A DNA stretch of 64,000 nt. Origin: Acanthococcus lagerstroemiae. Taxonomy: Eukaryota; Arthropoda; Insecta; Hemiptera; Eriococcidae. A model generated the notes under the pieces. That model saw nothing but the letters and a program-made list of their open reading frames with translations. It did no database searches and was not told where the DNA came from. Each line of letters opens with the position of its first letter. Positions within the stretch are counted from its first letter, which is position 1. The stretch spans positions 49,870,122 to 49,934,121 of the forward strand of contig CM063108.1 of NCBI GenBank assembly GCA_031841125.1. The letters run 5' to 3'. This document shows positions 480 through 35,430 of the stretch, in pieces. Both the position numbers and the translations under genes were made by a program.

Positions 480-1129
480 CCCGGCGTTCCCGAGACTTTA
501 GACTACAAACTGAGCACACACGTCGTGTCGTATGTGAATTAGTTTGAACGCTAGAGCGCACAGTGTATGACTTTTGAAACAACAACCCCCGCACATTTCA
601 AACTTCATCGCAAATTTGGTTCCTTTGAGGCCTTTACGTTTCCAACTTGCGGTATCTTTTTCCTTGGCTGCATTATATTCACAGTATTTAGTCCTAAGAT
701 TGGATGAACTCTCACTTAACTACGAGAAAAGACTCCATCACCATGCCAACGTGAACGCGATAAACCTTCTAAACTGCTGCGATGAAACAAGAAGACTCAA
801 GAGACCCCGACTGATTCTTTAACGTACATCCTATTTAACTCGCATACTCATGTTCTTTCCTTAAATGCTACATACTGTAAGATACTGTAAGTTATTCGTA
901 CGTAGCAATAGCCATAAACGCTTAAGAAACCAAAATTAGTCCAAAGAATGAACATAATCGATTACTATAAAGAGTAACTTCTGATTCAGAATGATCAATA
1001 GGCTCTTACATCAGATTCCGGTAGTCTGATCGACCAATTGGACTTCTTAAAATCGAAGAACATTGACTAGAACCGAATACTGAATGCCGATTGGCTGTTA
1101 TTATTTTCACGTTACACTTTTTAAGAGCT
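480..1129 (+). repeat. upstream flank of the F-box cluster, left arm (inverted copy at 35008-35430)
   Basis: The stretch matches, in reverse complement, the sequence upstream of the minus-strand F-box gene at 34472-34882. Shared landmarks include GACTACAAACTG/GACTGCAAACTG, CACGTCGTGT, GCTAGAGCGC, TTTTCCTTGGCTGCAT and AATCGAAGAACATTGA. The left copy carries an extra 241-bp piece (695-935). A nominal 82-residue open frame at 574-822 crosses that junction and is not supported as a gene. Confidence 0.8.
695..935. mobile_element. 241-bp insertion flanked by TTAGTCC duplication
   Basis: The inverted homologous copy (around 35195-35215) reads straight through this point with one TTCGTCC. Here TTAGTCC occurs at 688-694 and again at 936-942, as expected for a target-site duplication of 7-8 bp. 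No clear terminal inverted repeat, poly(A) tail or coding sequence is seen, so the class is unknown. Confidence 0.6.
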
Positions 1130-1141
1130 TACCATACGGTA
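1130..1141 (+). promoter_or_regulatory. TACCATACGGTA element of F-box copy 1
   Basis: Exact copy of the 12-bp near-palindrome, 133 bp before the pseudogene ATG at 1263. An ATTGGCTG (inverted CCAAT) lies about 40 bp upstream. The following sequence (ACTACTCGATG, ATAATACTGCAGTACAAACTC) matches the copy at 34997-35008, so these two share a promoter subtype. Confidence 0.75.
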
Positions 1142-1262
1142 CTACTCGATGTATAATACTGCAGTACAAACTCAAATACGGCGCACGGCGCAGTGGCACT
1201 CCAGAAAGCAATTGGTAAACATTGATTAACTCAGACCACATCAAACGATTCTACAGCAAGAG

Positions 1263-1668
1263 ATGGCTGTTTTCTACCAAATGTCGCACGCTTTTGAGTT
1301 TCTGTCTAAACGGAAAATTTGACATTATATCTAGACTACCAGTGGAGATCTCAACAAGTATCTTCCGAATGTTAGATCCGGCACCCATGGTAGCTGCAAT
1401 GCAAGTTCGACAAAGCTGGTATTGGTTGTACAAATCAGATACAGTACTCAAAAGAATCATTTGAAAGAAAGTTCGAGAACGCAAAGAGGCGAAAAGACTC
1501 TTGATTCATAATCTAAGTGTTGACCCGAGAAGCTCCTGGTATCGACAATCACAATCCGATGTGCATACTCGACTCGGCCACCGGAATACAACCAAACGAA
1601 AAGCTAAATCCCAAGCAAGATCTTCAAAAAAGCCTCGAGACTTCCAGGTGAAATGCTTAAGAATATGA
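1263..1668 (+). pseudogene. F-box family pseudogene (copy 1)
   Basis: Same family as the gene at 1978. The leader ATGGCTGTTTTCTAC is present at 1263, but a small deletion after the CTGTCTAAACG stretch (where intact copies read TGATGATGACG) puts the leader out of frame with the F-box. A TGA at about 1462 replaces the usual arginine codon after KRII. The F-box itself (LPVEISTSIF, WYWLYKSD) and the basic tail to KCLRI-stop are otherwise readable. AATAAA follows about 60 bp downstream. It is nearly identical to the copy at 13572-13958, its partner in the segmental duplication. Confidence 0.85.
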
Positions 1669-1852
1669 CGAAGCCGACTTTGGTTCATAAGCATTGTAGT
1701 GTAAATACATAACCTTGTAAGATAATTAATAAATTATTGCTCTAAATTGCCAAGTTTTTACTTATTGAACTTCATGATGAGAAAGCTGGCCGCTCTGCGT
1801 ACTGAACGCTGGTTGGCTAATATTGCCCTGTACGCCAAAATAGTTGCGAGTT

Positions 1853-1864
1853 TACCATACGGTA
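1853..1864 (+). promoter_or_regulatory. TACCATACGGTA element of F-box copy 2
   Basis: Exact 12-mer in the context GTTTACCATACGGTATTAC, 125 bp before the ATG at 1978. GGTTGGCTAAT (inverted CCAAT) lies about 40 bp upstream. The 5' leader between element and ATG is conserved in most copies (GTGGCACTCGAGA, CACTAAGACCACATC, ACGATTCTAC). Confidence 0.8.
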
Positions 1865-1977
1865 TTACCGGCGGTGTGATACTACCGCAAATACCCGAAT
1901 ACAGCGTAGTGGCACTCGAGAAACCAACCGGTTAACATTGAACCACTAAGACCACATCGAACGATTCTACCGCAAAG

Positions 1978-2388
1978 ATGGCTGTTTTCTACCAAATGTC
2001 CTACGCTTTTGACTTTCTGTCTGATGATAACCGAAAACTTGATATTCTATCTGCACTACCAGTGGAATTATCGACAAGCATCTTCCGGATGTTAGACCCG
2101 GCATCCATGGTAGCTGCCATGCAAGTTAGACGAAGCTGGTATTGGTTGTACAAATCAGACAAAGGACTCAAAAGAATCCTGAGAAAGAAGGTCCGAGAAC
2201 GGAAAGAGACGAAAAGACTCTTGATTCACAATCTGAGTGTTGACCCGAGGAGCTCCTGGTATCGACATCCAGAATCTGACGTGGACACTCGACTTGGCCA
2301 ACGGAGTACAACAAAACGAAAGGCTAAATCACAAGCCAAATCTGCGAAAAAACCTCGAGACTTCCAGGTGAAATGCCTAAGAATGTAA
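1978..2388 (+). CDS. small F-box protein, 136 aa (copy 2)
   Basis: Single-exon gene, likely a SKP1-binding F-box protein of the SCF ubiquitin ligase type. The F-box spans about residues 23-68: LP at 27-28, LPVELSTSIF, MLDPASMVAAM, then V-R-R-S-W-Y-W-L-Y-K-S-D, matching the LPxE..xIF..LD..S....V.R.W..L consensus. Residues 69-80 (RKKVRERKETKR) and 112-127 are strongly basic and could act in nuclear import. No LRR, WD40, Kelch or other usual substrate domain is present and the protein is far shorter than most F-box proteins. The ATG at 1978 is chosen because every sibling conserves MAVFYQ. AATAAA at 2447-2452. The fold call is from consensus matching; the function is inferred. Confidence 0.82.
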   Translation: MAVFYQMSYAFDFLSDDNRKLDILSALPVELSTSIFRMLDPASMVAAMQVRRSWYWLYKSDKGLKRILRKKVRERKETKRLLIHNLSVDPRSSWYRHPESDVDTRLGQRSTTKRKAKSQAKSAKKPRDFQVKCLRM

Positions 2389-2459
2389 CAAAGCCAACTT
2401 TGGTCCATAAAAATATTGTATTGTAAATAGACTTTGTAAATTAATTAATAAATCATAGC

Positions 2460-4080
2460 TCTACATTTTCATCAATGTTCTTACTTATTGAACTTTATGA
2501 TGGCAAGACGGGTCTCTTTCTACATTTGTAATCTATGAGTGTCTACTTGCATTATGAGATAAGACGGAAGGGCAAGCAATATCAACGCTCATTCAAATGT
2601 TCCATAACTGAGAAGTGTTTCTCTAGTAATCAAAAGGCAGTAGCCTTACAAGTTTCTTAGATTCAGTTTTCGAGCATTTTTCAGGGAGTGGGGGAGCGTT
2701 GAAAATGTTGATATTCCTGAGAAGAGAGTAACCGTAGTACAGCAGACATCCTGAACAAATCCGAAGTTCTAAGAAACACGGTGAAAGTTCGTGATGGCTA
2801 CCTCTTATGTGTCACGCACTATCACGGGCTATCATTCCTCACCATCAAGAACACTCCATCGCTTTATTTTATTGACTTTTTTATACATTACAGAGGTCCT
2901 TACTTCTGGTAGATTAAATAATTTTTTCAATTGGCATACCTACTAGATCTGTTCCAAATAGGTATAAAGGGGGAAAAGTGTTCTCCAAACTCTGAGCAAG
3001 CCTAGCGAAGGGTAATCCATTTTTCAAGGGACTTGAAGTTTTTATAAGACAACATTTTTTTTCGGCGTTCGAGCCCCAATCGAGAGAGAAGCCCTCCATA
3101 TGGGGTTAAAAATTCTTTTCTTTCTGAAATTTTGGACTTTCAGGTTCTCCGAGTCTAAAATTTATTCTCCCCATTATTTTTTATGTCTTTATAATGGTTT
3201 TTGAGTCGGTGAGTTCATGTTTGGAGTTTTTTCTGCTCTTCTTTTACCCTGTGAACTCCACAAGGGCCTGATTTTCAATTATTTTAGTATCAAGATCAGC
3301 CCCTTGTGAAGCCCAACGGGTTAGGAGAGCGTGAAATAAACTAAACTTTTATTTTGCATCAGAATAGCTGAAGTTCATCCCTAAAGGAGAGTAAGGAGGA
3401 AACAATCTAAAAATAAATGAATGATACGCCTTCAGAAAAAAAAAAATGTAGACAAAAAAATTGTGGAAATTAAGAATCAGCTCCGTGTAACGCTCAAAGA
3501 GGAAGGGGAAGGATGAGGAGGACTCTTAAGCATGGATTCAATGGCCTTAAAAAGATCAGTTTGAAATAGAAAACATCAATTTTGAAAGAAAAACATTCAC
3601 TTGAAGGAGAAAATACTTTTTAGGTTCTATTATCTTAGGGCTTCTTCTGACCGGCGCTCAACTTTCAAAAATTAATGTTAATTTCTTCGAGAATTTTAAT
3701 ATTCTGGAGGCACGGTTTACCCTTCACCAATTTTTCTGAAACTTATCACAAAAAATTTCTAGAATATTTGGAGCCTATTTAGGGAGCAAGTCAACTGAAA
3801 ATCAAAGGCAGAAAAATAAGGACCTTCCCCACACACCAATTAGATCACACCTAATTGAAATAACTAATCCCAGAGCATCCAATTTGTCAATTACACAATC
3901 TAAATGATCATGATTCTTATGCGAGTCATCAATATTCATGAATTATCAGTTTTTGTTTAAATCGAAACTGCCTTTGCCTTCCGAATCCTAATTTGAGTCC
4001 ATTGGCCCATCAGCCTATCTTGCATCTTCAAATTAAACAAAATCATCAATACCGCATTCTCAATGCTGGTTGGCTAATAC
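2460..4080. repeat. intergenic part of a directly duplicated block (copy at about 14760-16430)
   Basis: No gene is seen. The stretch aligns almost base for base with about 14760-16430. The right copy has about 50 extra bases near 15437-15488 and about 16 near 15692, and lacks about 10 near 15108. A 61-residue minus-strand open frame occurs in both copies (2914-3099 and 15197-15382) but has no recognisable similarity and is probably carried passively. Confidence 0.8.
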
Positions 4081-4097
4081 TAAAATCATTGCGAGTT

Positions 4098-4109
4098 TAC
4101 CATACGGTA
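4098..4109 (+). promoter_or_regulatory. TACCATACGGTA element of F-box copy 3
   Basis: Exact 12-mer, 125 bp before the ATG at 4223, in the context GAGTTTACCATACGGTATTACC. GGTTGGCTAATAC lies about 30 bp upstream. Confidence 0.8.
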
Positions 4110-4222
4110 TTACCAACTGCATGATACTACCGCACATACCCAAATACAACATAGTGGCACTCGAGAGGCCAATTGGTAAACATTGATCCACTAAGACCAC
4201 ATTGAACGATTCTACAGTAAAA

Positions 4223-4633
4223 ATGGCTGTTTTTTATCAAACGTCCTACGCTTTCGACTTTCTGTCTGATGATGATGGAAAATTCGACATTATAACTGCA
4301 CTACCAGTGGAGTTATCGGCAACCATCTTCCGGATGTTAGACCCGACATCCATGGTAGCTGCAATGCTAGTTCGACGAAGCTGGTATTGGCTTTACAAAT
4401 CAGACAAAGGACTCAGAAAAATGCTGAGGACGAAAGTCCGAGAACGAAAAGAGGCGAAAAGGCTCTTGATTCACAATCTCAGTGTCGACCCTAGGAGCTC
4501 CTGGTATCGAGAACCACAATTCGATGTGGACACTCGACTCGACCAACGGTATACGAAAAAACGAAAGGCTAAATCGCAAGCGAGATATGCGAAGAAGCTT
4601 CGAGACTTACAGGTGAAATGCCTAAGAATGTAA
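4223..4633 (+). CDS. small F-box protein, 136 aa (copy 3)
   Basis: Intact member of the family described at 1978, with the LPVELSATIF helix variant, MLDPTSM and GLRKMLRTKV. Distinctive changes are Thr at residue 7 (MAVFYQT), AAMLVRR in the F-box, YREPQFDV, and a tail reading RYTKKRKAKSQARYAKKLRD. The frame stays open upstream of the ATG, but 4223 is the start conserved in siblings and lies at the standard 125 bp from the promoter element. AATAAA at 4697-4702. Its partner in the segmental duplication is the gene at 16571. Confidence 0.82.
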   Translation: MAVFYQTSYAFDFLSDDDGKFDIITALPVELSATIFRMLDPTSMVAAMLVRRSWYWLYKSDKGLRKMLRTKVRERKEAKRLLIHNLSVDPRSSWYREPQFDVDTRLDQRYTKKRKAKSQARYAKKLRDLQVKCLRM

Positions 4634-4709
4634 AGAAGCCAACTTTGGTTCATAAAAATATTGTAATGTATGCCAAATACATATTGTAAAATAATTAATA
4701 AAAAATTAT

Positions 4710-6195
4710 TTCATTGAATTTCCATTGATGCTCTTACTCATCAAACTTTATAGCGATGAAAGTCTCACCATCATTCTATTCTATAACTACCTGTACTATG
4801 AAAGAAAGGAAAGGTAAGCAATACAGAGTAGCCACTTTTTTATTTTAATAATTTTCCCTGACTTTTCACGCGTTTCCAGACCAATTTTCCAGATATTCTC
4901 AGTAATTTTTTCAACTTCTATTGTACACAACTTTAATCAAAACTTTATATTAATTGAAAAGATTTTTGTTAAAGAAATAAGTCATTGCACTTTATCATGG
5001 TTGAAGACGTCGGTACAAAGTGCAGACCTAAAAGGTCGTCAACGACGAATACTCTATTTTGGGAGTGTACTAATTGCCATCAATGTTCTTGTAAAATATT
5101 TAACAAATTATAGCGTTCAACTGCTACCAATTTTCTTGTAAGTTAAACTTTACGATGATAGGCCTGGTCTTTCTCTGCATTTCTTATGAACGACTACTCG
5201 TGTTATGAAGAAAAAAAGAAGGAAAGGCAAGCAATATTAATATACCTTCAAATGGCACACATATTGATTTATAAGGAGACCCGAAAGGCAGTTGATTGAA
5301 ATCAATTTACTCTTTCGACCAAACTGGGAGTTTCCAAAGTGGAAGGTCGTCTGCTACAGCGACAACATTTCCAAGTTATCCGAAGGTCACGAAGAAAGAC
5401 GTTCATGGGTCATCGCTAAAATAAAACACTACAAATAAGAAGTTGCCGCTTAAAAATCGATAAAATGTGACAGTTAATGATTTTCAATTCATGAGAGCTA
5501 ATTCACAGAAAATTCAACATTCTGATCGATTGTATATTCCGGGTGTAGTTCAACATGTTACCATATTTCTTATTGGCAGAGACGTGGACTAGAAAAATTG
5601 GCATCAAAATTTGGACTGTCGAGATAATAATAAATTACAAAAAAGAAGAGGGCTTCCAACGTTTTAATTTTTCGAAATACATCACTTATTATGACCCAAA
5701 ATACTTTTCAAAAATTCAGGCTCTAGCCATCATTTTTGACACTGAAGGGTTCAGTTTCCTTTGCGTCTCTATTACTACCAACGGAAATTTGAAGATTAGA
5801 TGGTTTCAGGTTTCAATTTTATTAAGAAAAGTAATAGTTAAAGCGTCAAGAAGGTGACCAAATCAAAATTAAAACTACTGACAAAAAAAAATCGTCAATA
5901 AAGAGATCATGTTACCAAATCTAGTACAGTTACACAGTTTGATAACCCCTTGTAAACGGAGGGTAGATGATTCCTGTGAACTTGTTGCTGATTGCCTGAT
6001 ATCGAGCTCTCGGCTTCCCATACCTCAAAACCCAGAAACGGTCAGGAAAAAGAAAATAAATAACATAATGGACCAAATTATCTGAAAAAGTAGCTTCAAT
6101 GTTTGCTACAGCTGTTTTAAGTAATCTGTCGATGACGGTTGAGAACTGATTGCTCATTGGCTGAGGAGTTTCATAAGCAACAACCAATAGCAGTA
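4710..6195. other. intergenic sequence with faint repeat traces, no supported gene
   Basis: A short stretch at about 4850-4895 (TTTTCCCTGACTTTTCACG, TTTCCAGACCAATTTTCC) resembles the internal repeat of the element at 63403-63775. A 100-residue open frame at 5555-5857 begins with ATG and is unusually long for this AT-rich context, but no domain is recognisable. The last 200 bp resemble the upstream region of the minus-strand relic at 25.6 kb (ATGGACCAAATT/TTTGGACCAGATAC landmarks, ATTGGCTGA). Confidence 0.45.
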
Positions 6196-6202
6196 GCGTG
6201 CT

Positions 6203-6214
6203 TACCATACGGTA
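6203..6214 (+). promoter_or_regulatory. TACCATACGGTA element of diverged F-box copy
   Basis: Exact 12-mer in CTTACCATACGGTACTACTT, 114 bp before the ATG at 6317. CATTGGCTGAGG lies about 45 bp upstream. The element is perfectly kept although the gene behind it is much diverged and broken. Confidence 0.72.
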
Positions 6215-6316
6215 CTACTTCGCCTATGCCATGAGGGATACACCCACAACAGGCTCAGTGGCGATCTAGAAACGAACTAGTACTCTAAGTCTACGAATAA
6301 CAAAAGAGCAGAAGTC

Positions 6317-6706
6317 ATGACTACTTTCAGCCAAGTGTCTTTTGCCGATTTTATGCCAGATGATGGACGATTTTACATCATATCCAGGCTACCGGAAGAA
6401 ATATCAACGACTATCTTCCGAATGCTGGATCCATCTTCGATTTTATCAGCTATTCTAGTAAGACGAAGATGATATCATCTGTACAAATCAGACACTAGGC
6501 TCTGGTGAATGCTGAAGAAGAAAGTCCAAGACTGAGCACGCTTGCGGCACAATCAGACAGTGGGCCGGGACAGCTCTCACTTCCGACCCCAACGGCAATT
6601 TCAGCTAGGTAAACTGAAGACAAAGCAACGTAAGGCAACTATGTCGTGGACTCAGCGTGTCAAATTGCCTGAAGAGTCACCGCCCATTAAATGTCTAAGA
6701 ATGTAA
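6317..6706 (+). pseudogene. diverged F-box pseudogene with three in-frame TGA codons
   Basis: Starts MTTFSQVSFADFMPDD and keeps a good F-box (SRLPEEISTTIF, RMLDPSSILSAILVRR). It ends in the family signature KCLRM-stop, and the whole 130-codon span stays in one frame. TGA codons replace the Trp of R-S-W-Y, an Arg in the KRIL region (LW-TGA-MLKKKV), and an Arg of VRERK. The basic RKKV region survives as KKKVQD; the tail is only loosely similar. Together with 7829 and 9246 it defines an older MTTF subfamily. The lack of any frameshift beside three stops is slightly odd for an old pseudogene. Confidence 0.8.
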
Positions 6707-6919
6707 CAATGCCGCCATTTCGGCTAATACACCATATTACGGTGACCGACTCTGCTACAACGAGCAGATAAGGAATATCGATGCAGTCAATTAACGACAG
6801 AGACTCAGAATTGTTAATGTGGACTTCCAGCACAAATGTTGAAGAATGTACAGCGAAACCATCTCTGGTGGATAAATTGTAACTTCATTATAAGCGAAAT
6901 GAGATTAAATAAATATTAA

Positions 6920-7540
6920 GAACAAATAATTCTTAAGCATTTCCTAAATTCCCATTTTGCGAGCTCCAAAATTACTCACTTCGAAGCACACATGAAACAT
7001 GAAAAATGTCAACTAGGCAAGTAGATCAGAATTTCAGCATTCAGCAAATAATAATGAAACGGAAGAACACTTCAAAGCTTCTATTCAACTAAAGAAATCA
7101 CTAATTACAGTCCCGATCAATGTTTATCCCCCTTGAATCTCTGTCACTTTCAACAAAACTTACGGCGGCGGTTGGATATTTGGACGTTATTGTATAACAG
7201 TGTTAGCTGAACTAAGCTACCTGGAGATACTCAAGTATGACAGCAAACAGACGAAAGATGACGTATGTCTATACCCGAGAGTTTTCAACGGCTTTGTTGA
7301 AGTATTGATGTACCAAGATTATGGAAATTTAATGAGAAGTGAAATAGGTAATTTAAAAAAGAAAAAAAAGAGGGAAACAGAATAACTGGTCATTGATAAA
7401 CAAACCAGATGGTATTCACCCAAATTGAACTACAAAGTTCTCTAACCGCTTCTAAAAGGCGGGTCTAAGACTTTTACAAAGTGGTTGCAGATTGGCTAAG
7501 GTCATTCCTACACAACCAATAGCAACTGCACCTGTATGTT
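6920..7540. other. intergenic sequence, no gene seen
   Basis: A 61-residue open frame at 7200-7385 ends in a lysine run and has no recognisable similarity. AGATTGGCTAAGG and AACCAATAGCAACTG (CCAAT boxes) occur at 7490-7530, as in the upstream regions of other family members. Confidence 0.4.
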
Positions 7541-7552
7541 TACCATATAGTA
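7541..7552 (+). promoter_or_regulatory. variant element TACCATATAGTA
   Basis: 10 of 12 bases match the F-box element, in the context GTATGTTTACCATATAGTATTAC. The CCAATAGCAACTGCA upstream matches the inverted context at 25.7 kb. The F-box relic begins about 290 bp downstream, so sequence has been inserted between. Confidence 0.6.
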
Positions 7553-7828
7553 TTACTTTTCAGTGCCGGGAACTTTTCATAATTCTATGTGTAACGGGGA
7601 GAAAACATCACACTAATTTTACACAGTACAGTTTTATTATTGCACTATTAAACCAATAATTTTCCCAGTGTTACAATGTATAACGTCGCTATTCACGAAA
7701 TTCCCCAATGTATAGCATTTGCTACACACGCTATATAGAAATCGCCGGCCCAATACGTTTGGCTATGACAAGTTCGATAGAAGAGAAAAATCTTATTGGC
7801 GAACTAGAAACCCAAGCAATTTTGCGGT

Positions 7829-8110
7829 GCAACATCACTACCTTCCCTCCCGAGCATCTTTCGCAGACTTGCTGCTTGATGACAGAAGATTTGACATCAC
7901 AACCAGACTACCAGAGGAGATATTGAAGACCATCTTTCGAATGTTGGAACTAGCTTTAACGCTATAGGCCCGGGTCAGTCAGCAATGGTATATTATCTGC
8001 ATCAATAACACCCCGGACTCGGGTGAATCCTAAATAATTCACGAGAAAATAAGTTTGAAATCACATCTGCTGTACCATGCAACAGATCAACAAACTTTTT
8101 ATCTAAATTA
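7829..8110 (+). pseudogene. diverged F-box relic (MTTF subfamily)
   Basis: The readable part is RASFADLLLDDRRFDITTR followed by LPEEILKTIFRMLE, the N-terminus and first half of the F-box as in the copy at 6317. The frame stops at about 7967, just after RMLELALTL. The sequence after it (TTATCTGCATCAATAACACC, CTCGGGTGAATCCTAA) corresponds loosely to the LYKSD..GLKRIL part but is not open. The ATG has been lost or replaced. No function is expected. Confidence 0.65.
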
Positions 8111-8159: not shown

Positions 8160-8512
8160 ACTTGGTACACGAAAAACGCGTTTCTATGAAACGGCCCAAC
8201 AGTTTACTACGTTCTTCATAATTTTGGCGTTAGGATGGTCGTCATATCTTAATTGTGAAGAAAAATTCAGCATACCTGCAGCTGAAACACTCGTTCTTCT
8301 ACAGTCCAATAACCAACATAATGCTTACCTGCAACAAAAACAAAGTTATATTAGGATACGTCTTAAAATCATGCTTCTTGTATTGACTCCAATATATTAG
8401 ACGCAACTCAACCAGGCTTACTATAGTGTTCCATTTGTAGAATGCGCCAATTCCCTTTTCTTCTTCTGTAGTCCAGTGCGTTTCGTGGTCTTGTAGTCAT
8501 AGTCGAGAGTAG
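8160..8512. other. intergenic sequence, no gene seen
   Basis: An element copy on the minus strand at 8513 points into this stretch, but no F-box sequence is recognisable in it on either strand. Confidence 0.4.
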
Positions 8513-8524
8513 TACCGTATGGTG
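8513..8524 (-). promoter_or_regulatory. orphan TACCATACGGTA-like element
   Basis: Reads CACCATACGGTA on the minus strand (11 of 12), followed by CTACTCTCG as in copy 1. No F-box reading frame follows at the usual 125-bp distance, so this is either a relic or the promoter of something else. Confidence 0.55.
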
Positions 8525-8544
8525 AACGTGTTTAGTCCTGTGCT

Positions 8545-8660
8545 CCTATTGGTTGTCTGTGATTATGCAGTCTGTCCAATCAGTGAATGTTATTAGTTGT
8601 GTGCCCATACTGGTTGTCTGTGGTTGAGCAGTCTATCCAATCCGTGGATGTTATGTTATC
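8545..8660 (+). repeat. two diverged tandem units of about 58 bp
   Basis: Two tandem copies of a unit reading TATTGGTTGTCTGTG, then CAGTCTGTCCAATC, then GTGAATGTTAT. They contain inverted and direct CCAAT motifs and lie between the orphan element and the Penelope-like fragment. Confidence 0.6.
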
Positions 8661-8699
8661 AGTTGGAATAAGTTGTCACTTTGGAAGTTAATTATTGTG

Positions 8700-9101
8700 T
8701 TTATTAGGTTGTTTTGTTTTTGTCTTTATTATTTCTAGTTGTTATTTTAATTTTATTTTTCTTGTTTTGTTTTCTATGTGTAGGATTTTGTACATCTCTG
8801 TTAATTTGTCATTATTATATCCCTAGTCATTGGAGTGTTTTCCAAACAATAATTTGTCATCATTTAGCTTCTGTGACTTTTCATGTTTTTTTATTCTGGT
8901 TAGGAATTTTTTGCCTGTTTCTCCTATGTAGGTCATGTCACAGTGTTCACAGCCCAGTCTGTATACTCCGCTACTGTTGTAGCTGTCCTTTGTTTCTTTT
9001 TTATCATTGCTTATTTGTTTGATCAGGGGTGGTCTGTATTTGATTCTGAGTTTTATGTTGCGTTGGGAATATTTTAAAATTCTGGGCGACATAGATTGCA
9101 T
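8700..9101 (-). mobile_element. Penelope-like retroelement fragment, GIY-YIG nuclease end
   Basis: Minus-strand frame 9101-8823 reads SSGVYRLGCEHCDMTYIGET followed by a K-x-x-x-TRIKKHE stretch. This is the GIY-YIG endonuclease motif (GVY...TYIG, CxxC insert, downstream R..EH) found at the C-terminus of Penelope-like retrotransposons. After a frame break at about 8823 the sequence continues as NDKLTEMYKILHIENKT, also typical. No reverse transcriptase remains: the upstream side is replaced at about 9110 by F-box-family flank. A + strand hydrophobic frame (8714-9022) is its antisense shadow. A 5'-truncated dead copy is the simplest reading. Confidence 0.72.
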
Positions 9102-9245: not shown

Positions 9246-9434
9246 ATGACTACCTTCAACCAACCATCCTTTACAGACTTCCTACCAGATGATGGAAGAT
9301 ATGACATCATAGCCATACTACCACACGAGATATCAATAACCATCTCCCGAATGCTAGATCCGGCTCAGGTTCTATCAGCAATTCGGAAAATACAGCACCA
9401 ATTTCGACCACAAGCAATACGAGCCTACAAATAA
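9246..9434 (+). pseudogene. truncated F-box relic (MTTF subfamily)
   Basis: An ATG-started frame of 62 codons reads MTTFNQPSFTDFLPDDGRYD and then LPHEISITISRMLDPAQVLS. Homology ends in the middle of the F-box after LSAI, followed by unrelated RKIQHQFRPQAIRAYK. The tryptophan half of the domain and the basic tail are missing. No TACCATACGGTA element lies upstream, where the Penelope-like fragment abuts at about 9105. CAGCCAATCGC is kept at about 9140. Confidence 0.7.
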
Positions 9435-13571: not shown

Positions 13572-13958
13572 TACGCTTTTGAGTTTCTGTCTAATGATGA
13601 CGGAAAATTTGACATTATATCTAGACTACCAGTGGAGATCTCAACAAGTATCTTCCGAATGTTAGATCCGGCATCCATGGTAGCTGCAATGCAAGTTCGA
13701 CAAAGCTGGTATTGGTTGTACAAATCAGATACAGGACTCAAAAGAATTATGAGAAAGAAAGTTCGAGAACGCAAAGAGGCGAAAAGACTCTTGATTCATA
13801 ATCTAAGTGTTCAAGCGAGAAGCTCCTAGTATCGAAAAACACAGTCCGATGTGGATACTCGACTCGGCCAGCGGAATACAACAAAACGAAAAGCTAAATC
13901 CCAAGCAAGATCATCGAAAAAGCCTCGAAACTTCCAGGTGAAATGCTTAAGAATATAA
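13572..13958 (+). pseudogene. F-box family pseudogene with replaced N-terminus (copy 4)
   Basis: Family sequence begins abruptly at ACGCTTTTGAGTTTC. The normal leader and MAVFYQMS codons are replaced by foreign sequence running from the 13301-13500 inverted repeat. An open frame from ATG 13464 fuses that foreign part (MIFAPCVFLTGVNTY...) to the complete F-box. A TAG at about 13827 stops it after LSVQARSS, where siblings read SSWYR. Downstream sequence to KCLRI-stop is still readable. A truncated chimeric F-box protein of 121 residues is formally possible, but no TACCATACGGTA promoter is attached. It is the duplicate of copy 1. Confidence 0.75.
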
Positions 13959-14142
13959 CAAAGCTGACTTTGGTTCATAAGCATTGTAATGTAAATACAT
14001 AACCTTGTAAGATAATTAATAAATGATTGCTCTAAAATGCCAAGTTTTTACTTATTGAACTTCATGATGAGAAAGCTGGCCGCTCTGCATACTGAACGCT
14101 GGTTGGCTAATATTACTATGTACGCCGAAATAGTTGCGAGTT

Positions 14143-14154
14143 TACCATACGGTA
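14143..14154 (+). promoter_or_regulatory. TACCATACGGTA element of F-box copy 5
   Basis: Exact 12-mer, 125 bp before the GTG at 14268, with GGTTGGCTAATATTAC about 40 bp upstream. The context matches the element at 1853, as expected for duplicated blocks. Confidence 0.8.
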
Positions 14155-14267
14155 TTACCTGCGGTGTGATACTACCGCAAATACCCGAATACGGCGTAGT
14201 GGCATTCGAGAAACCAACCGGTTAACGTTGAATCACTAAGACCACATCGAACGATTCTACAGTAAAA

Positions 14268-14681
14268 GTGGCTGTTTTTTATCAAATGTCCTACGCTTTT
14301 GACTTTCTGTCTGATGACGACGGAAAATTTGACATTATATCTGCACTACCAGTGGAATTATCGGCAACTATCTTCCGGATGTTAGACCCGGCATCCATGG
14401 TAGCTGCCATGCAAGTTAGACGAAGCTGGTATTGGTTGTACAAATCAGACAAAGGACTCAAAAGAATCCTGAGAAAGAAAGTCCGAGAACGCAAAGAGGC
14501 GAAAAGACTCTTGATTCACAATCTGAGTGTCGACCCGAGGAGCTCCTGGTATCGACAGCCACAATTCGATGTGGACACTCTACTCGACCAACGGAGGAGT
14601 ACAACAAAACGGAAGGCTAAATCGCAAGCAAGATCTGCGAAAAAGCCTCGAGACTTCCAGGTGAAATGCCTAAGAATGTAA
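14268..14681 (+). CDS. small F-box protein, start codon changed to GTG (copy 5)
   Basis: The frame is fully open and family-like (LPVELSATIF, MLDPASMVAAM, WYWLYKSDKGLKRIL), with one extra arginine codon near the tail (DQRRSTTKRK). The codon at 14268 that is ATG in siblings is GTG here. Eukaryotic GTG starts are inefficient, so translation may begin at the in-frame ATG at 14286 (MSYAFDFL), which would leave the F-box intact. Alternatively the copy is newly inactivated. AATAAA at 14740-14745. It is the duplicate of the gene at 1978. Confidence 0.7.
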   Translation: MAVFYQMSYAFDFLSDDDGKFDIISALPVELSATIFRMLDPASMVAAMQVRRSWYWLYKSDKGLKRILRKKVRERKEAKRLLIHNLSVDPRSSWYRQPQFDVDTLLDQRRSTTKRKAKSQARSAKKPRDFQVKCLRM

Positions 14682-14759
14682 CGAAGCCAACTCTGGTCCC
14701 TAGAAATGTTGTAATGTAAATAGACCTTGTAAATTAATTAATAAATCATAGCTCTAAAT

Positions 14760-16430
14760 TTTCATCAATGTTCTTACTTATTGAACTTTATGATGGCAAG
14801 ACGGGTCTCTTTCTATATTTGTAATCTATGAGTGTCTACTTGTATTATGAGATAAGAGGGAAGGGCAAGCAATATCAACGCTCATTCAAATGTTCCATAA
14901 CTGAGAAGTGTTTCTCTAGTAATCAAAAGGCAGCAGCCTTACAAGTTTCTTAGATTCAGTTTTCGAGCATTTTTCAGGGAGTGGGGGAGCGTTGAAAATG
15001 TTGATATTCCTGAGAAGAGAGTAACCGTAGTACAGCAGACATCCTGAACAAATCCGAAGTCCTAAGAAACACGGTGAAAGTTCGTGATGGCTACCTCTTA
15101 TGTGTCACGGGCTATCATTCCTCACCATCAAGAACACTCCATCGCTTTATTTTATTGACTTTTTTATACATTACAGAGGTCCTTACTTCTGGTAGATTAA
15201 ATAATTTTTTCAGTTGGCATACCTACTAGATCAGTTCCAAATAGGTATAAAGGGGGAAAAGTGTTCTCCAAACTCTGAGCAAGCCTAGCGAAGGGTAATC
15301 CATTTTTCAAGGGACTTGAAGTTTTTATAAGACAACATTTTTTTTCGGCGTTCGAGCCCCAATCGAAAGAGAAGCCCTCCATATGGGATTAAAAATTCTT
15401 TTCTTTCTGAAATTTTGGACTTTCAGGTTCTCTGAGTCCATTCTTGGTATCATTTCCCGCAGCACAAGGGGTTAAATTTTATTAAATTAAAATTTATTCT
15501 CCCCATTATTTTTTATGTCTTTATAATGATTTTTGAGTCGGTGAGTTCATGTTTGGAGTTCTTTCTGCTCTCCTTTTACCCTGTGGACTCCACAAGGGAC
15601 TGATTTTCAATTATCTTAGTATCAAGATCAGCCCCTTGTGAAGCCCAACGGGTTAGGACAGCGTGGAATAAACTAAACTTTTATTTTGCAACAAGAAACG
15701 AGAAAATCAGAATAGCTGAAGTTCATCCCTAAAGGAGAGTAAGGAGAAAGAATTCTAAAAATAAATGAATGATACGCCTTAAGAAAAAAAAAAATTAGGC
15801 ATAAATAATGTGGAAATTAAGAATCAGCTCCGTGTAAAGCTCAAAGAGGAAGGGGAAGGATGAGGAGGACTCTTAAGCATGGATTCAATGGCCTTAAAAA
15901 GATCAGTTTGAAATGGAAAATATCAATTTTGAAAGAAAAACATTCACTTGAAGGAGAAAATACTTTTTAGATTCCATTATGTTAGGGCTTCTCCTGACCG
16001 GCGCTCAACTTTCAAAAATTAATGTTAATTTCTTTGAGAATTTTAATATTCTGGAGGCACGGTTTACCCTTCACCAATTTTTCTGAAACTTATCACCAAA
16101 ATTTTCTAGAATATTTGGAGCCTATTTAGGGAGCAAGTCAAATGAAAATCAAAGGCTGAAAAATAAGGACCTTCCCCAGAAACCAATTAGATCATACCTA
16201 ATTGAAATAACTAATCCCAGAGCATCCAATTTGTCAATTACACAATCTCAATGATCATATTTCTTATGCGTGTCATCAATATTCATGAATTATTACTTTC
16301 TGTTTAAATCGAAACTGCCTTTTTGCCTTCCGAATCTTAATTTAAGTCCATTGGCCCACCAGCCAATCATGCATCTTAAAATTAAACAAAATCATCAATA
16401 CCGCATACTCAATGCTGGTTGGCTAATACC
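14760..16430. repeat. intergenic part of duplicated block, second copy
   Basis: Near-identical to 2460-4080. No gene is supported. Confidence 0.8.
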
Positions 16431-16444
16431 AAAATCATTGAGTT

Positions 16445-16456
16445 TACCATACGGTA
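16445..16456 (+). promoter_or_regulatory. TACCATACGGTA element of F-box copy 6
   Basis: Exact 12-mer, 126 bp before the ATG at 16571, with GGTTGGCTAATACC about 25 bp upstream. Matches the element at 4098. Confidence 0.8.
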
Positions 16457-16570
16457 TTACCTACTGCATTAAACTACCGCAAATTCCCGAATACAGCGTA
16501 GTGGCACTCGAGAGACCAATTGTTAAACATTGGTTCCACTAAGACCACATCAAACGATTCTACAGTAAAA

Positions 16571-16981: not shown

Positions 16982-17090
16982 AGAAGCCAACTTTAGTCCA
17001 TAAATATTCTAGTGCAAATAGACTTTGTAGAATAATTAATAAATCATAGCTCTAAATTTTCATCAATGTTCTTACATATTGAACTTCATG

Positions 17091-25319: not shown

Positions 25320-25600
25320 AGGCGGGAAAATACTGAATTCGGTCTTGCTGTGAGCTCTTCCGATCAATGGTCAGATCGTGAATCAAGCGTATTTTCGCCT
25401 CTCCTCGTTCTCAAACGTTGATACTGGGAGCTTTCCGATCCATAATATTATTACGTCTGCTCCGTCCTCTCTGTAATTCAATAAGTTCCGTCACCGTCTT
25501 ACTCAAATGACCGATTGAATTATGGCTGGATTCAGCATTCGAAAAATGATCGTCAATACCACCCGCGATATTTCGGGTATGACTTCAAGTCATCTACATC
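25320..25600 (-). pseudogene. badly decayed F-box relic
   Basis: On the minus strand ATCATTTTTCGAATGCTGAA reads TIIFRMLNPA, the core of the F-box, after PEIS. Further on, GAGAACGAGGAGAGGCGAAA and CTTGATTCACGATCTGACC match the RERKEAKRLLIHNLS part, and GAAGAGCTC matches the RSSW part. Several stops and indels destroy the frame. It is similar to the MTTF subfamily and is preceded at the right distance by an exact promoter element (25695-25706). Confidence 0.72.
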
Positions 25601-25694
25601 ATTTGCTGCAGTGGACTTACGCAAGCGAGTTTGTTTCCAGATCGCGACTATAGGCTCTCTGCTGCTGTGCCCCAATATGGCATGGCCAACGTAA

Positions 25695-25706
25695 TACCGT
25701 ATGGTA
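25695..25706 (-). promoter_or_regulatory. TACCATACGGTA element of F-box relic
   Basis: Exact 12-mer on the minus strand, preceded by ACCAATGGCAACTGCATGTT (CCAAT box) as at 7541. It is preserved although the F-box frame behind it has decayed. Confidence 0.7.
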
Positions 25707-25869
25707 AACATGCAGTTGCCATTGGTGGTTTAGAAACACTTTCAGCGAATCAGCAATCAGTTCACAGCAATTAACAATCGATTGAACATCAAAACTACAT
25801 TTGGACCAGATACAATGGTCCATTTTCATTAACAAATTATTCTTTTTGTTTTTATCAGGCATTGCAATT

Positions 25870-26678: not shown

Positions 26679-27088
26679 TTAAATTCTTAGGCATTGCACC
26701 TGGAAGTCTCGAGACTTTTTCGCAGATCTTGTTTGCGATTTAGCCTTTCGTTTTGCTGTACTCCGTTGGAAGAGTCGCGTATCCCCATCCGATTGTGGTG
26801 GTTGTTGATACCAAGAGCTCCTCGGGTCGACACTCAGATTGTGAATCAAGAGTCTTTTAGCTTCTTTTCGTTCTCGGACTTTCTTTCTCAGGATTCTTTT
26901 GAGTCCTCTGATTTGTACAACCAATACCAGCTTCGTCGAACTTGCATTGCAGCTACCATGGATGCCGGGTCTAACATCCGGAAGATACTTGTTGATATCT
27001 CCGCTGGCAGTGCAGATATAATATCAAATTTTTCGTCATTATCAGACAGAAAGTCAAACGCGTAGGACATTTGGTAGAAAACAGCCAT
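26679..27088 (-). pseudogene. F-box family copy with 4-bp frameshift (copy 7)
   Basis: Starts with the normal MAVFYQMSYAFDFLSD at 27088 and has the LPAEISTSIF helix variant. After WYWLYKS a 4-base deletion (siblings read TCAGACAAAGGACTC, here TCAGAGGACTC) shifts the frame, giving a 66-residue product ending KSEDSKES. The basic half continues intact in another frame (GLKRILRKKVRERKEAKR to QCLRI-stop). The truncated product would retain most of the F-box but lose its last helix and the whole basic tail. Confidence 0.82.
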
Positions 27089-27207
27089 TTTTTACTGTAG
27101 AATCGTTCGATGTAGTCTTAGTGGATCAATGTTTACCAGGTGGAGGTGGTTTCTCGAGTGCCACTGCGACGTATTGGGTATGTGCGGTAATAGTATACAG
27201 AAGGTAA

Positions 27208-27219
27208 TACCGTATGGTA
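27208..27219 (-). promoter_or_regulatory. TACCATACGGTA element of F-box copy 7
   Basis: Exact 12-mer, 131 bp before the ATG at 27088. The leader is longer by a few bases than in siblings (CCACCTCCACCTGG insertion). CAGCCAATCAGCC is read just beyond it. Confidence 0.78.
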
Positions 27220-27749
27220 AACTCACAAAGATTTAGATATATTAACAATATCAGCCAATCAGCCTTCACTACACAGAACCAATTGATTTTATTCAATTTC
27301 AAGAAACCCAATTGGTCGACAGATCAATGGACTCAGGATTCTAAAAGCAGGGGCAGTTTTAACTGACAGAAAGTAATATTTAGTCCATAAATACTATGAC
27401 ATGCGTAAAATATATTAAACATATTATACCAGTACTTATTCTGGTTAGCTGTGAAGTTCGATGCTCTAACATTAGTTGTTTTAATTAGGTGAGATCACGT
27501 TAGTGTTTAGTAGATGAAGAGATGGCAGACCTCAATTTCCAGCTTTTGATTTTCAGTTAGCTTACATCCTGGATCGGCTACAAATATTAGAAAATGTTTT
27601 ATAGGTAAATCGTTCCTCAAGGTGGTTGACCTCATGTTAATCAAAATATTAATTTTGGAATTCACGCGTCAGTCAAAAAGAAGCCCACCCCCACTGAGTC
27701 TATTTTTGTTTTCAAGATTCGATTTTTTTTTTTTTAACTGATCATTTGA

Positions 27750-28840: not shown

Positions 28841-29251
28841 TTACATTCTTAGGCATTTCAACTGGAAGTCTCCAGGATTTTTCGTAGCTCTTGCTTGCGG
28901 TTTAGCCTTTCGTTTTATTGTAATTCGTTGGTAGAGTTGAGAGTCCACATCGGATTGTGGTTGTCGATACCAGGAGCTCCTCGGGTCGACACTCAGATTG
29001 TGAATCAAGAGTCTTTTCGCCTCTTTTCGTTCTCGGACTTTCTTCCTCAGCATTCTTCTGAGTCCTCTGTCTGATTTGTACAACCAATACCAGCTTCGTC
29101 GAACTTGCATTGCAGCTACCATGGATGTTGGGTCTAACATCCGGAAGATGGTTGCCGACAATTCCACTGGCAGTGCAGATATAATGTCAAATTTTCTGTC
29201 ATTATCAGACAGAAAGTCAAAAGCGTAGGACATTTGGTAGAAAACGGCCAT
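28841..29251 (-). CDS. small F-box protein, 136 aa (copy 8)
   Basis: Intact minus-strand member with ATG at 29251 and LPVELSATIF, MLDPTSMVAAMQVRR, SDRGLRRMLRKKV. The tail is the most divergent of the intact copies (DVDSQLYQRITIKRKAKPQA, then RATKNPGDFQLKCLRM). The tail keeps its length and basic character despite many replacements. Poly(A) signal (inverted TTTATT) at 28777-28782. The frame extends 7 codons upstream without a better start. Confidence 0.82.
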   Translation of the reverse strand: MAVFYQMSYAFDFLSDNDRKFDIISALPVELSATIFRMLDPTSMVAAMQVRRSWYWLYKSDRGLRRMLRKKVRERKEAKRLLIHNLSVDPRSSWYRQPQSDVDSQLYQRITIKRKAKPQARATKNPGDFQLKCLRM

Positions 29252-29364
29252 TTTTATTGTACAATCATTCAATGTGGTCTTAGTGGATCAATGTTCACCT
29301 GTTGGTTTCTCAAGTGCCACTGCGAGTCCTTCGGGTGTGGGCTGTAGTATCATATAATAAGTAA

Positions 29365-29376
29365 TACCGTATGGTA
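29365..29376 (-). promoter_or_regulatory. TACCATACGGTA element of F-box copy 8
   Basis: Exact 12-mer, 125 bp before the ATG at 29251. AATCAGCCAATCAGCC is about 35 bp beyond. Confidence 0.8.
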
Positions 29377-29559
29377 AACTCGCAAAGATTTAGACATATT
29401 AACAGAATCAGCCAATCAGCCTTCACTATGCAGTACCAATCGATTTTATTCAATTATAAGAAGCCCGATTGGTGGACAGAGCAGTGGACTCAGGATTCTA
29501 AAGGCGGATGCAGTTTATTGGTTGTTAACTTGGATTTTCTATAATTCTTATTTGTTGAC

Positions 29560-31837: not shown

Positions 31838-31916
<79 letters not shown>

Positions 31917-32640: not shown

Positions 32641-33120
32641 TCCCAGTACCAGAATTCTCCTGTTGGGGTGGATTACATGCTGTTGAAATTTAAAGGAGAT
32701 AGAAAACACTCATTTGCAAACGAAGCAAGCAACATTTCTACAATTCTTCGGAAAACTTCTGAGAAAAGATTGTACTTTTCGCGGTCAACGATGGGGATCT
32801 CCCACTCCCCCACCCCCACCCCCACACGACCAGCTATGGCTGAGGATCGTGTTATAAGTTTGTAAAGAAGGCGCGTGTGAATATGTAACACTTAGGTGAT
32901 ACAGCAGCAAAATCGATACACTTCCTAATTGCGGACAAATACGAAATAAGTCAACAAATCTTATTTGCACGTGGAACGTAATAAGCTGAGAAGAACTAAA
33001 AATATAAAAACTTTCTTTTCTCAGAGATTTTTGTTACATCTCCCAGATTATCATTTACTAGCTTTGTCATTTTCTCCAGACTGAAATTTATTAACTTAAT
33101 AAAAATTTAGAACTATGTAT
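32640..33120. other. intergenic sequence, no gene seen
   Basis: Contains a short CCCCCAC-type run at about 32808-32826. Otherwise nothing recognisable. Confidence 0.35.
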
Positions 33121-33183
33121 TCATAAATTTATTTACAATGTCTATTTACATTACAATAATAATCATGGACCAAATTGGCTTCG

Positions 33184-33594
33184 TTACATTCGTAGGCATT
33201 TCACCTGGAAGTCTCGAGGCTTTTTCGCAGATCTCGCTTGCGATTTAGCCTTTCGTTTTTGCGTACTCCGTTGGCAGAGTCGAGTGTCCACATCGAATTG
33301 TGGTTGTCGATACCAGGAGCTGCTTGGGTCAACACTGAGATTGTGAATCAAGAGCCTTTTCGCCTCTTTTCGTTCTCGGACTTTCTGTCTCAGGATTCTT
33401 CTAAGGCCTTTATTTGATTTGTACAGCCAATACCAGCTTCGTCGAACTTGCATTGCAGCTACGATGGATGCCGGGTCTAACATCCGGAAGATGGTTGCCG
33501 ATAATTCCACTGGTAGTGCAGATATAATGTCAAATTTTCCGTCATCTTCAGACAGAAAGTCAAAAGCGTAGGACATTTGATAAAAAACAGCCAT
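33184..33594 (-). CDS. small F-box protein, 136 aa (copy 9)
   Basis: Intact minus-strand member, ATG at 33594, with LPVELSATIF. Distinctive residues are SEDDGKFD before the F-box, DPASIVAAM, KSNKGLRRILRQKV, SVDPSSSWYR and LCQRSTQKRKAKS. The frame stays open 17 codons upstream, but the conserved MAVFYQ is taken as the start. Poly(A) signal (inverted) at 33128-33133. The leader has ATTTACCAATTGGTCTC in place of the usual TTTACC-A/C-ACTGGT. Confidence 0.82.
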   Translation of the reverse strand: MAVFYQMSYAFDFLSEDDGKFDIISALPVELSATIFRMLDPASIVAAMQVRRSWYWLYKSNKGLRRILRQKVRERKEAKRLLIHNLSVDPSSSWYRQPQFDVDTRLCQRSTQKRKAKSQARSAKKPRDFQVKCLRM

Positions 33595-33708
33595 TTTTTG
33601 TTGTGGAATCGTTCGATGCAGACTTAGTGGATGCGAATTTACCAATTGGTCTCTCGAGTGCCACTGAGCCGTATTCGGATATTCGCGGTGATATCATACA
33701 ATAGGTAG

Positions 33709-33720
33709 TACCGTATGGTA
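33709..33720 (-). promoter_or_regulatory. TACCATACGGTA element of F-box copy 9
   Basis: Exact 12-mer, 126 bp before the ATG at 33594. Confidence 0.8.
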
Positions 33721-33779
33721 AACTCACAAAGATTTTGGTAATAGCCTACCAGCATTCAGTATGCAGTATCCATGATTTT

Positions 33780-34370
33780 GTTTAATTTTAAGAAGCATGA
33801 AAAGCTGAGGGACCAATGGACTCAGATCAGGATTCGGAAGGCAAAGGCAGTTTCGATAAAAGGAAAGTAATAATTTATGAATATTGATGACACGCATAAG
33901 ACATATGATTATTGAGATTATGTAATTGATAAGTTGGATGCTCCGGGATTGGTTACTTCAGGTAAATGTGATACGATTGGTATATACTGGGGGAAAGGTC
34001 CTTTTTCTTCAGCCTTCGATTTTCACTTGACCTGCTCTTTAAATAGGCTCCAAATATTAGACAATTTTTGTGACAAGTTTCAGAAAAATCGGTGAAGGGT
34101 AAACTATGTCTCCAGGGTATTAAAATTCTCAAAGAAATTAATTTTTGAAATTTGAGCGCCGTTCAGGAGAAGCTCTAACATCATAGAACCTAAAAATTAT
34201 TTTCTCTTTCAAGTTAATGTTTTTCTTTCCAAATTGATATTTTCTTTTTCAAACTGATCTTTTTTAAGCAACGAAATTCATTCTTAAGAGTCCTCCTCTC
34301 CTTTCTCTCCCTCTTTGAGTTACCTGGAGGTGATTCTCAATTTCCACATTCTTGCCATCATGAAGTTCAA
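33780..34370 (-). repeat. intergenic part of the duplicated unit, inverted relative to 3490-4060
   Basis: On the minus strand it aligns with about 3490-4060 and 15850-16410. Landmarks are CTTTTTAGGTTCTATTATCT/TTTTTAGGTTCTATGATG, GGCGCTCAA, TATTTAGGGAGCAAGTCAA and CATGAATTAT. No gene is seen. Confidence 0.75.
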
Positions 34371-34471
34371 TAAGTCAGAACATTCATGAAAATTTAGGGT
34401 TATGATTTATTAATTAATTTACAAAGTCTATTTACATTATAAATATTTTTATGGACCCAAAGTTGGCTTCG

Positions 34472-34882
34472 TTACATTCTTAGGCATTTCACCTGGAAGT
34501 CTCGAGGCTTCTTCGCTGATCTGGCTTGTGACTTAGCTTTTCGTTTTGTTATACTCCGTTGGCCGAATCGAGTGTCCACATCGGATTGTGGTTGTCGATA
34601 CCAGGAGCTCCTCGAGTCGACACTCAGATTGTGAATCAAGAGTCTTTTCGCCTCTTTTCGTGCTCGGACTTTTTTCCTCAGGATTCTTCCGAGTCCTTTA
34701 TCTGATTTGTACAACCAATACCAGCTTCGTCGAACTTGCATTGCAGCTACCATAGATGTTGGGTCTAACATCCGGAAGATACTTGTTGATATCTCCGCTG
34801 GCAGTGCAGATATAATATCAAATTTTCCGTCGTCATCAGACAGAAAGTCAAAAGCGTAGGACATTTGGTAGAAAACAGCCAT
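34472..34882 (-). CDS. small F-box protein, 136 aa (copy 10, rightmost)
   Basis: Intact minus-strand member, ATG at 34882, with LPAEISTSIF (the alternative F-box helix), MLDPTSM, DKGLGRILRKKVRARKEAKR, SVDSRSSWYRQPQS and RFGQRSITKRKAKS. Poly(A) signal (inverted) at 34406-34411. Its promoter and 430 bp of upstream sequence match the leftmost copy of the cluster, so the two ends of the array derive from one ancestral unit. Confidence 0.82.
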   Translation of the reverse strand: MAVFYQMSYAFDFLSDDDGKFDIISALPAEISTSIFRMLDPTSMVAAMQVRRSWYWLYKSDKGLGRILRKKVRARKEAKRLLIHNLSVDSRSSWYRQPQSDVDTRFGQRSITKRKAKSQARSAKKPRDFQVKCLRM

Positions 34883-34996
34883 TTTGGGTTGCAGAAACGT
34901 TTGATGTGGACTTAGTGGATCAATGTTTACCAGTTGGTATCTCGAGTGCCACTACGCCGTATTCGAGTTTGTACTGCAGTATTATGCATGTAGTAG

Positions 34997-35008
34997 TACC
35001 GTATGGTA
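34997..35008 (-). promoter_or_regulatory. TACCATACGGTA element of F-box copy 10
   Basis: Exact 12-mer in GCTTACCATACGGTACTAC, 126 bp before the ATG at 34882. Subtype as at 1130. CAGCCAATCAGC lies about 35 bp beyond. Confidence 0.8.
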
Positions 35009-35430
35009 AGCCCTTAAAAAGTGTAACATGGAAATAATAACAGCCAATCAGCATTCAGTATTCAGTTCTAATCAATGTTCTTCGATTTTAAGAAGCCCGA
35101 TTGGTCAGTCAAGCTAACCGATTCAGATGTAAGAGCCTATGGAGTATAGATCATCCTCAATCAGAATTTAATGTTTGCAGTAATCGATTATGTACATTCT
35201 TTGGACGAAATAATGTGAATATTATGCAGCCAAGGAAAAGAATACCGGAAGTTGGAATTGTAAACACCTCAAAGGGGTCAACATTTGCGTTAAATGTCGA
35301 AATAAGAGGGTTATTCTGTCAAAAGTAATGTACTGCGCGCTCTAGCGCCCAAACGAATTCACGCACAACACGACGTGTATGTCCAGTTTGCAGTCTGAAG
35401 TCTCCGTTACACGTTGGTGTTGGTGCCTTT
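35009..35430 (-). repeat. upstream flank of the F-box cluster, right arm
   Basis: Inverted homologue of 480-1129 lacking the 241-bp insertion found there. It marks the right limit of the inverted cluster. The short + strand frame at 35101-35328 is not supported. Confidence 0.8.

Follow-up and report, generated by a model that had tools for sequence, protein, structure and literature searches.

What is an array of very small F-box genes, with intact copies and relics side by side, doing in the genome of an insect? The question is raised by a 64,000-nucleotide stretch of Acanthococcus lagerstroemiae (Hemiptera, Eriococcidae), positions 49,870,122–49,934,121 of contig CM063108.1 in GenBank assembly GCA_031841125.1, which we call the window; the contig is called C3. 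An original prediction, made from the letters alone, had described about fourteen copies of a single-exon F-box gene there, all forward on the left and all reverse on the right. With a little more belief than doubt, we favour the explanation that the genes encode a family of minimal F-box proteins (mostly 129–137 residues), specific to the lineage and still functional, which are probably nuclear adaptors of SKP1–CUL1–F-box (SCF) complexes with a peptide docking tail. Positions below are those of the window unless they are given in Mb or as eight-digit positions, which refer to C3.

The array in the window

To locate the F-box loci we ran tblastn, using a 136-residue copy as the query, and discarded the matches with an expectation value (E) above 1 (at 25048, 34759 and 38112). 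There are 14 loci, nine on the forward strand (1.26–16.98 kb) followed by five on the reverse strand (25.35–34.88 kb). With nine forward and five reverse loci, two such runs have a chance of about 0.001 under shuffled strands.

Six loci hold an ATG frame of exactly 136 codons: c2 (1978–2388), c3 (4223–4633) and c9 (16571–16981) on the forward strand, and c12 (28841–29251), c13 (33184–33594) and c14 (34472–34882) on the reverse strand, where loci start at the higher coordinate. These genes are compact, with the whole frame in one exon. Such a frame is absent from the other eight loci. On the forward strand, c1 (1263–1668) has a frameshift near codon 16 and one TGA, a relic at 6317–6703 of the MTTF type (subfamily B, below) has three stops and 46% identity to c9, tblastn finds fragments at 7878–7991 and 9246–9386 (the second of subfamily B type), and c7 (13572–13958) is homologous from codon 9 on and has one TAG. 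The copy c8 (14268–14681) has 137 open codons, one more than the intact genes, but GTG stands where the ATG should be; a start at a later ATG would give 131 codons. On the reverse strand there is a heavily decayed fragment found by tblastn (25351–25589), and c11 (26679–27088), whose frame is shifted by a 4-bp deletion. The coordinates, strands and counts of the original prediction were correct, and its idea of birth and death among relics is supported.

Inverted homology between the flanks, a check set beforehand, was found in three pieces: 492–702 against 35404–35195 (79% identity), 936–1779 against 35209–34356 (83%) and 3462–4702 against 34348–33120 (85%). The left arm (492–4702) therefore pairs in pieces with the right arm (33120–35404), i.e. 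0.5–4.7 kb with 35.4–33.1 kb, and is about 2 kb longer. There is also a direct duplication with 91.7% identity, in which c1-c2-c3 (1288–4751) corresponds to c7-c8-c9 (13573–17089).

Two clusters and two subfamilies

The array runs beyond the window. We searched the 658-Mb assembly (438 contigs) with the F-box protein and counted matches at E ≤ 0.001; matches are pieces, not genes, and the counts are lower bounds. At least 64 matches were found, all on C3, in two clusters 12.5 Mb apart: at least 33 at 37.156–37.330 Mb and at least 31 at 49.796–49.988 Mb. We read 204 kb around the second cluster, minus 121 bases. Its blocks are forward (49.797–49.817 Mb), reverse (49.842–49.854), forward (49.871–49.887) and reverse (49.895–49.905), with an isolated F-box fragment beyond them at 49.987 Mb. 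Because the cluster alternates in this way over four blocks, the 35 kb in the window make up the right-hand half of a larger array. The giant palindrome of the original prediction stands as an inverted array, but it is not one 35-kb palindrome; it belongs to the alternating array, which has a sister cluster.

Two subfamilies are present in the 204-kb region. Subfamily A (MAVFYQ type) has 15 ATG frames of 136 codons plus the GTG frame of c8. Subfamily B (MTTF/MTFF type) has two open frames of 129 codons (49,806,841 and 49,808,086) and one on the reverse strand, 49841768, whose 131 codons run uninterrupted between ATG and stop. The starts of the window relics 6317 and 9246 resemble subfamily B. 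In the explanation that we favour, direct and inverted duplications expanded the family to form the two arrays on a single contig of chromosome size.

Selection and gene conversion

The dN/dS set comprised the 16 subfamily-A frames, with the third open subfamily-B frame (49841768) outside it. Across these frames the proportions of synonymous (pS) and nonsynonymous (pN) differences are 0.253 and 0.069, and dN/dS is 0.236 (codon bootstrap 0.18–0.32). The value that the original prediction was to be judged by, dN/dS across intact copies, is thus well below 1, and we saw no sign of positive selection in the analysis of the 16 frames. Between subfamily A and two subfamily-B frames, pS reaches 0.72 and dN/dS is 0.15. 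The seven window frames alone have a pN/pS of 0.29, and their tail, at 0.46, is constrained as well. As an inner control we took the relic pair c1-c7, which gives pN 0.051, pS 0.063 and pN/pS 0.81 from 14 and 5 changes; with only 19 changes, this control is weak. All of this indicates that the open frames are maintained by purifying selection, and dN/dS here is an average and not a per-gene test, because the pairs depend on one another and conversion breaks the assumption of a tree.

Signs of conversion are visible in several places. In the direct duplication the spacers diverge by 3.7%, and gene dS is 0.12 for c3-c9 and 0.20 for c2-c8. The copy c8 is a mosaic: it is nearest to c2 upstream, to c9 in the first 36 codons, and to other copies beyond. 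A run-length permutation test (300 shuffles) put three of 120 pairs over the global 95% limit (49813656-49847738, 49815839-49816826 and 49849914-49872099), and two of the three join opposite strands. To judge from these patterns, the copies are mosaics of the type produced by ectopic gene conversion.

The protein and its relatives

The F-box identity in the original prediction held up against the profiles. All seven copies scored (c8 from its later ATG) exceed the curated cut-off of 24.3 for PF12937 (F-box-like) with 25.1–27.5 bits, a margin of 0.8–3.2, and all seven are under the cut-off for PF00646. A simple F-box pattern written by hand matches 57 of 64 proteins, and among the seven that it misses are two array copies in which L replaces I. 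We chose c9 for a single-chain structure model; 16 of the best 17 VIA-align rows were F-box or SKP1 entries, and the model has no folded domain outside the F-box region. A SKP1-compatible fold, another check set beforehand, thus has indirect support from the matches of the model. In the seven copies no other Pfam family passed its cut-off, so that we found no substrate domain (WD40, leucine-rich repeat (LRR) or other) behind the F-box, and no leucine-rich repeats. Calculated isoelectric points are 10.1–11.2.

The 136-residue form had been said to match nothing recognised, and this did not hold. With a single sequence as the query we obtained 13 relatives at E up to 10, and a profile search, which scored only the 7992 candidates with most shared words, found 46 at E ≤ 0.01. 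Two are from Kerria lacca (PGB90_002407 and PGB90_002403; E values 5e-37 and 3e-28, with about 45% identity for PGB90_002407), one is from Adelges cooleyi (1e-6) and one from Fopius arisanus (6e-11). Kerria and Adelges are both Sternorrhyncha. Three relatives come from contigs assigned to the pitcher plant Sarracenia purpurea, and these are possibly insect contamination. In the tree, which like alignment A2 excludes eight relatives (P0016, P0026, P0027, P0031-P0034 and P0041), many forks are weak, long branches group together, and more than one origin is not forced for either cluster. The unnamed relative P0001 groups with two copies of the 37-Mb cluster.

Length and layout are shared across the family: 32 of the 46 relatives have 120–138 residues, and the common order of parts is the F-box, a basic helix, an IHNLSV..SWYR-like stretch (in many), KRKR-like words, and a C-terminus of the form [LMI]-R-[MIFVL]-COOH. 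Part order is the same in the two Kerria lacca proteins and the 44 further relatives, compared as proteins. The C-terminal motif is present in 18 of 18 array frames examined and in 35 relatives. Among the 11 without it, P0016, P0019 and P0027 have the motif with W immediately behind it, P0026 has it followed by Q in a longer prediction, and the other seven are short or distant. The form of this C-terminus would fit a class II PDZ ligand. The basic tail without a substrate domain, as originally described, therefore stands with respect to Pfam families, but the tail is not featureless, as it carries a conserved C-terminal motif.

A viral origin was considered and rejected: when viral contigs were scanned using the family alignment, 37 pattern stretches came up, none coding for a relative. 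We found no description of the family in the titles and abstract openings of the open-licence literature.

A near-invariant element upstream of the genes

Alignment of the regions upstream of the F-box genes revealed a 17-bp element, TTACCATACGGTAYTAC. The window has 14 matches to it at up to three mismatches against 0.14 expected by chance. Twelve are at F-box loci, one (8509, reverse strand) is in a dispersed repeat, and one (48745, reverse strand, three mismatches) is in neither. On the forward strand the element lies before c1 (1129–1145), c2 (1852–1868), c3 (4097–4113), the relic 6317 (6202–6218, exact), c8 (14142–14158) and c9 (16444–16460), and well upstream of the fragment 7878 (7540–7556, two mismatches). 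On the reverse strand it lies near the decayed fragment 25589 (25691–25707, exact) and before c11 (27204–27220), c12 (29361–29377), c13 (33705–33721) and c14 (34993–35009).

We examined 22 intact frames (16 of subfamily A, three of subfamily B and three read from the 37-Mb cluster), and 21 have the element, with at most one mismatch, 118–130 bp ahead of the ATG or start: all 16 of subfamily A, two of three of subfamily B and all three from the 37-Mb cluster. The exception is 49841768, where just the right half remains, at -106. At this gene (49841768-49842160, reverse strand) the halved element adjoins what appears by eye to be an inserted reverse-transcriptase fragment. In the 12 relics the element is at about its usual distance in eight and at an odd distance in two (7878 and 25589), and the remaining two (9246 and 13572) are without it. 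There is also an exact copy in the array at C3:49795908 (forward strand) with no F-box start within the following 243 bases read.

Over 32 promoter sites, mean pairwise identity is 95% inside the element and drops to 49% and 51% in the adjacent 17 bp to its left and right. These sites are the 35 picked by the motif at no more than one mismatch, minus three of repeat type, and the contrast is partly due to this choice; the count of 21 out of 22 is not affected in this way. A word of the TATGA/TATAA/CATGA type, chosen after the sequences were viewed, begins 6 bp past the element in 25 of the 32 sites, and six have exact TATAA. Many promoter sites have CCAAT at -17 or -18, or ATTGG near -40. The near-invariant 17-bp element, in a compact region upstream of the F-box genes, is a new observation; the original prediction had missed it.

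The same element in a dispersed repeat

At one mismatch the element occurs at 1136 + 1192 places in the genome (about 2,300), against 4 + 2 for the reversed pattern. For 28 of the first 30 listed places, one dispersed repeat matches outside the element. In these 30, TATAA follows the element within 20 bp in 21, and CCAAT lies 10–30 bp before it in 19. The two non-repeat places (L025 and L047) have no convincing gene behind them, so host-gene promoters with the element were not found among the 30. An 18-mer form occurs at 85 places genome-wide, against none for the control, and the 49.8-Mb array accounts for 13 of the 85.

Penelope-like elements are a class with a GIY-YIG endonuclease next to a reverse transcriptase. 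In this repeat, frames that look like GIY-YIG begin 429–652 bp ahead of the element at the loci L023, L036, L040 and L044, and in the window a repeat copy (8509–9101, reverse strand, outside the F-box genes) has the element with one mismatch beside a GIY-YIG-like piece. The piece in the window scores 22.2 bits and two of those loci 17.4 and 20.8, with a cut-off of 22.6; because all of these are below the cut-off, the repeat is probably, not certainly, Penelope-like. A search for a hammerhead ribozyme in seven of the 30 loci found none. Up to E 1 it returned nine matches, one in L022 and a group of eight that overlap in L032; all are to microRNA or snoRNA models and fall short of the gathering score.

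The repeat does not include the F-box genes, and the two have the 17-bp element and CCAAT words in common. We rejected the idea that the whole F-box upstream region is derived from the repeat: with the element masked, only CCAAT words match at a comparable place (10–13 nt in six of the 32 sites, E 0.05 to 3). For the promoter module of the genes and the repeat, common descent seems likelier than chance.

Explanations

We believe that the array is best explained by a working family of minimal adaptors. Each protein would bind SKP1-CUL1 through its F-box, and the binding to SKP1 is quite likely. The very basic tail would probably place the protein in the nucleus. The C-terminal peptide [LMI]-R-hydrophobic-COOH might then recruit one conserved partner or substrate and replace a folded substrate domain, a step that we regard with slightly more doubt than confidence. 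Since many copies are held similar by conversion, the benefit is more likely to be dosage than diversity. The element also serves the dispersed repeat, which can spread only through copying in germ cells, and for this reason we predict that the F-box genes are expressed in the germline or early embryo, although this prediction falls just short of an even call.

The strongest competitor is a role as SKP1 decoys: the short F-box proteins would engage SKP1 but bring no substrate, and their copy number would tune SCF activity. A model with no folded domain beyond the F-box region and many near-identical copies kept alike both suit a decoy, but the last residues are conserved across relatives at 30–50% identity, which a pure decoy would not need. 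We consider decoys fairly unlikely.

A bolder form of the adaptor explanation joins the genes to the repeat. Here a sap-feeding insect lineage would have evolved miniature nuclear adaptors that read their target by a free C-terminal tripeptide, and that share with the Penelope-like repeat one germline activator and a dedicated core promoter made of the CCAAT word, the 17-bp element and the TATA-like word at fixed spacing. The array might have arisen to control the repeat, or one might have captured the promoter of the other. We find this full version unlikely.

Intragenomic conflict, in which the family would have been amplified either as members of a toxin-antidote or drive pair or as protection from the dispersed repeat, would fit an array of alternating orientation with many relics, two clusters on one contig, and a promoter element in common with a mobile repeat. 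However, no partner gene was seen in the parts of the array that were read, the dN/dS analysis has no sign of positive selection, and the shared element may be mere promoter capture, so we think conflict distinctly improbable.

The proteins could also be effectors delivered into the host plant. F-box effectors, including F-box/LRR proteins, are reported for a plant-feeding insect, the Hessian fly (PMC7376646), and relatives of the array proteins are present in sap feeders. However, the N-terminus MAVFYQMSYAFDFLSDD is, by eye, unlike a secretion signal, there is no LRR, and the conserved tail and low dN/dS are unlike fast effector change; we judge this very unlikely. Least probable of all is that the tandem array is dying and its open frames are functionless leftovers: this would account for the eight of 14 window loci without an intact frame, but not for a dN/dS of 0.24 across the 16 open frames when the relic pair has 0.81, for two subfamilies still open at pS 0.72, or for relatives elsewhere with the same layout.

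Other features of the window and assembly

The transposon-filled centre of the original prediction is weakly shown. It has a FLYWCH zinc finger piece marginally over its cut-off (18035-18403, reverse strand), in addition to the sub-cut-off GIY-YIG piece at 8.8–9.1 kb, and three further pieces tested, at 19.5, 21.0 and 24.7 kb, match no Pfam family. To the right of the array are a Pif1 helicase 2B domain (48.5 bits; 40710-41414, reverse strand), perhaps from a Helitron, and an open frame with DDE_1 (62.5 bits; 55725-56858, forward strand), a piece of a pogo-like transposase. No Rfam family reached its gathering score in the window, and a candidate RNA gene was thus rejected.

A COX1 search of the assembly gave 96 matches, nearly all short TGA-bearing pieces across the large contigs C1-C9, as expected of many mitochondrial insertions. 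Over 200 residues the mitochondrial COI is very derived, with 51% identity to the best of 13 relatives; taken with the Kerria and Adelges proteins, this makes a sternorrhynchan source, perhaps a scale insect, somewhat more likely than not. One match, at C11:405992-407317 (forward strand), lies in a 749-residue frame and has no stops, whereas the mitochondrial copy on C326 has 12 TGA; C11 is perhaps a bacterial symbiont contig in the assembly.

What the array means

Lineage-specific F-box expansion is a known kind of event, and the form found here is new. Insects are among the known cases, with F-box/LRR expansions reported in Aphidius ervi and Lysiphlebus (PMC7257214) and the Hessian fly (PMC7376646). 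Those families have leucine-rich repeats, whereas the array proteins have an F-box and a short basic tail. Caenorhabditis has lineage-specific tandem expansions with purifying selection on the F-box part, as in the array, and dN/dS peaks above 1.5 towards the C-terminus are reported there in most of the paralog pairs analysed (PMC8665587); the array has instead a constrained tail with its last residues kept and no substrate domain.

F-box expansions are often taken as arms races with a fast-changing substrate part, as in Caenorhabditis (PMC8665587). In the array, by contrast, both the F-box part and the final residues are preserved and the copies have been homogenised. This suggests dosage or redundancy, and a peptide tail as the means of recognition. 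Most orphan gene families lack a handle such as the promoter element, which places a mobile repeat and a gene array on one signal, at about 2,300 places. Scale insects have unusual chromosome behaviour, and a germline F-box array, if true, would bear on it.

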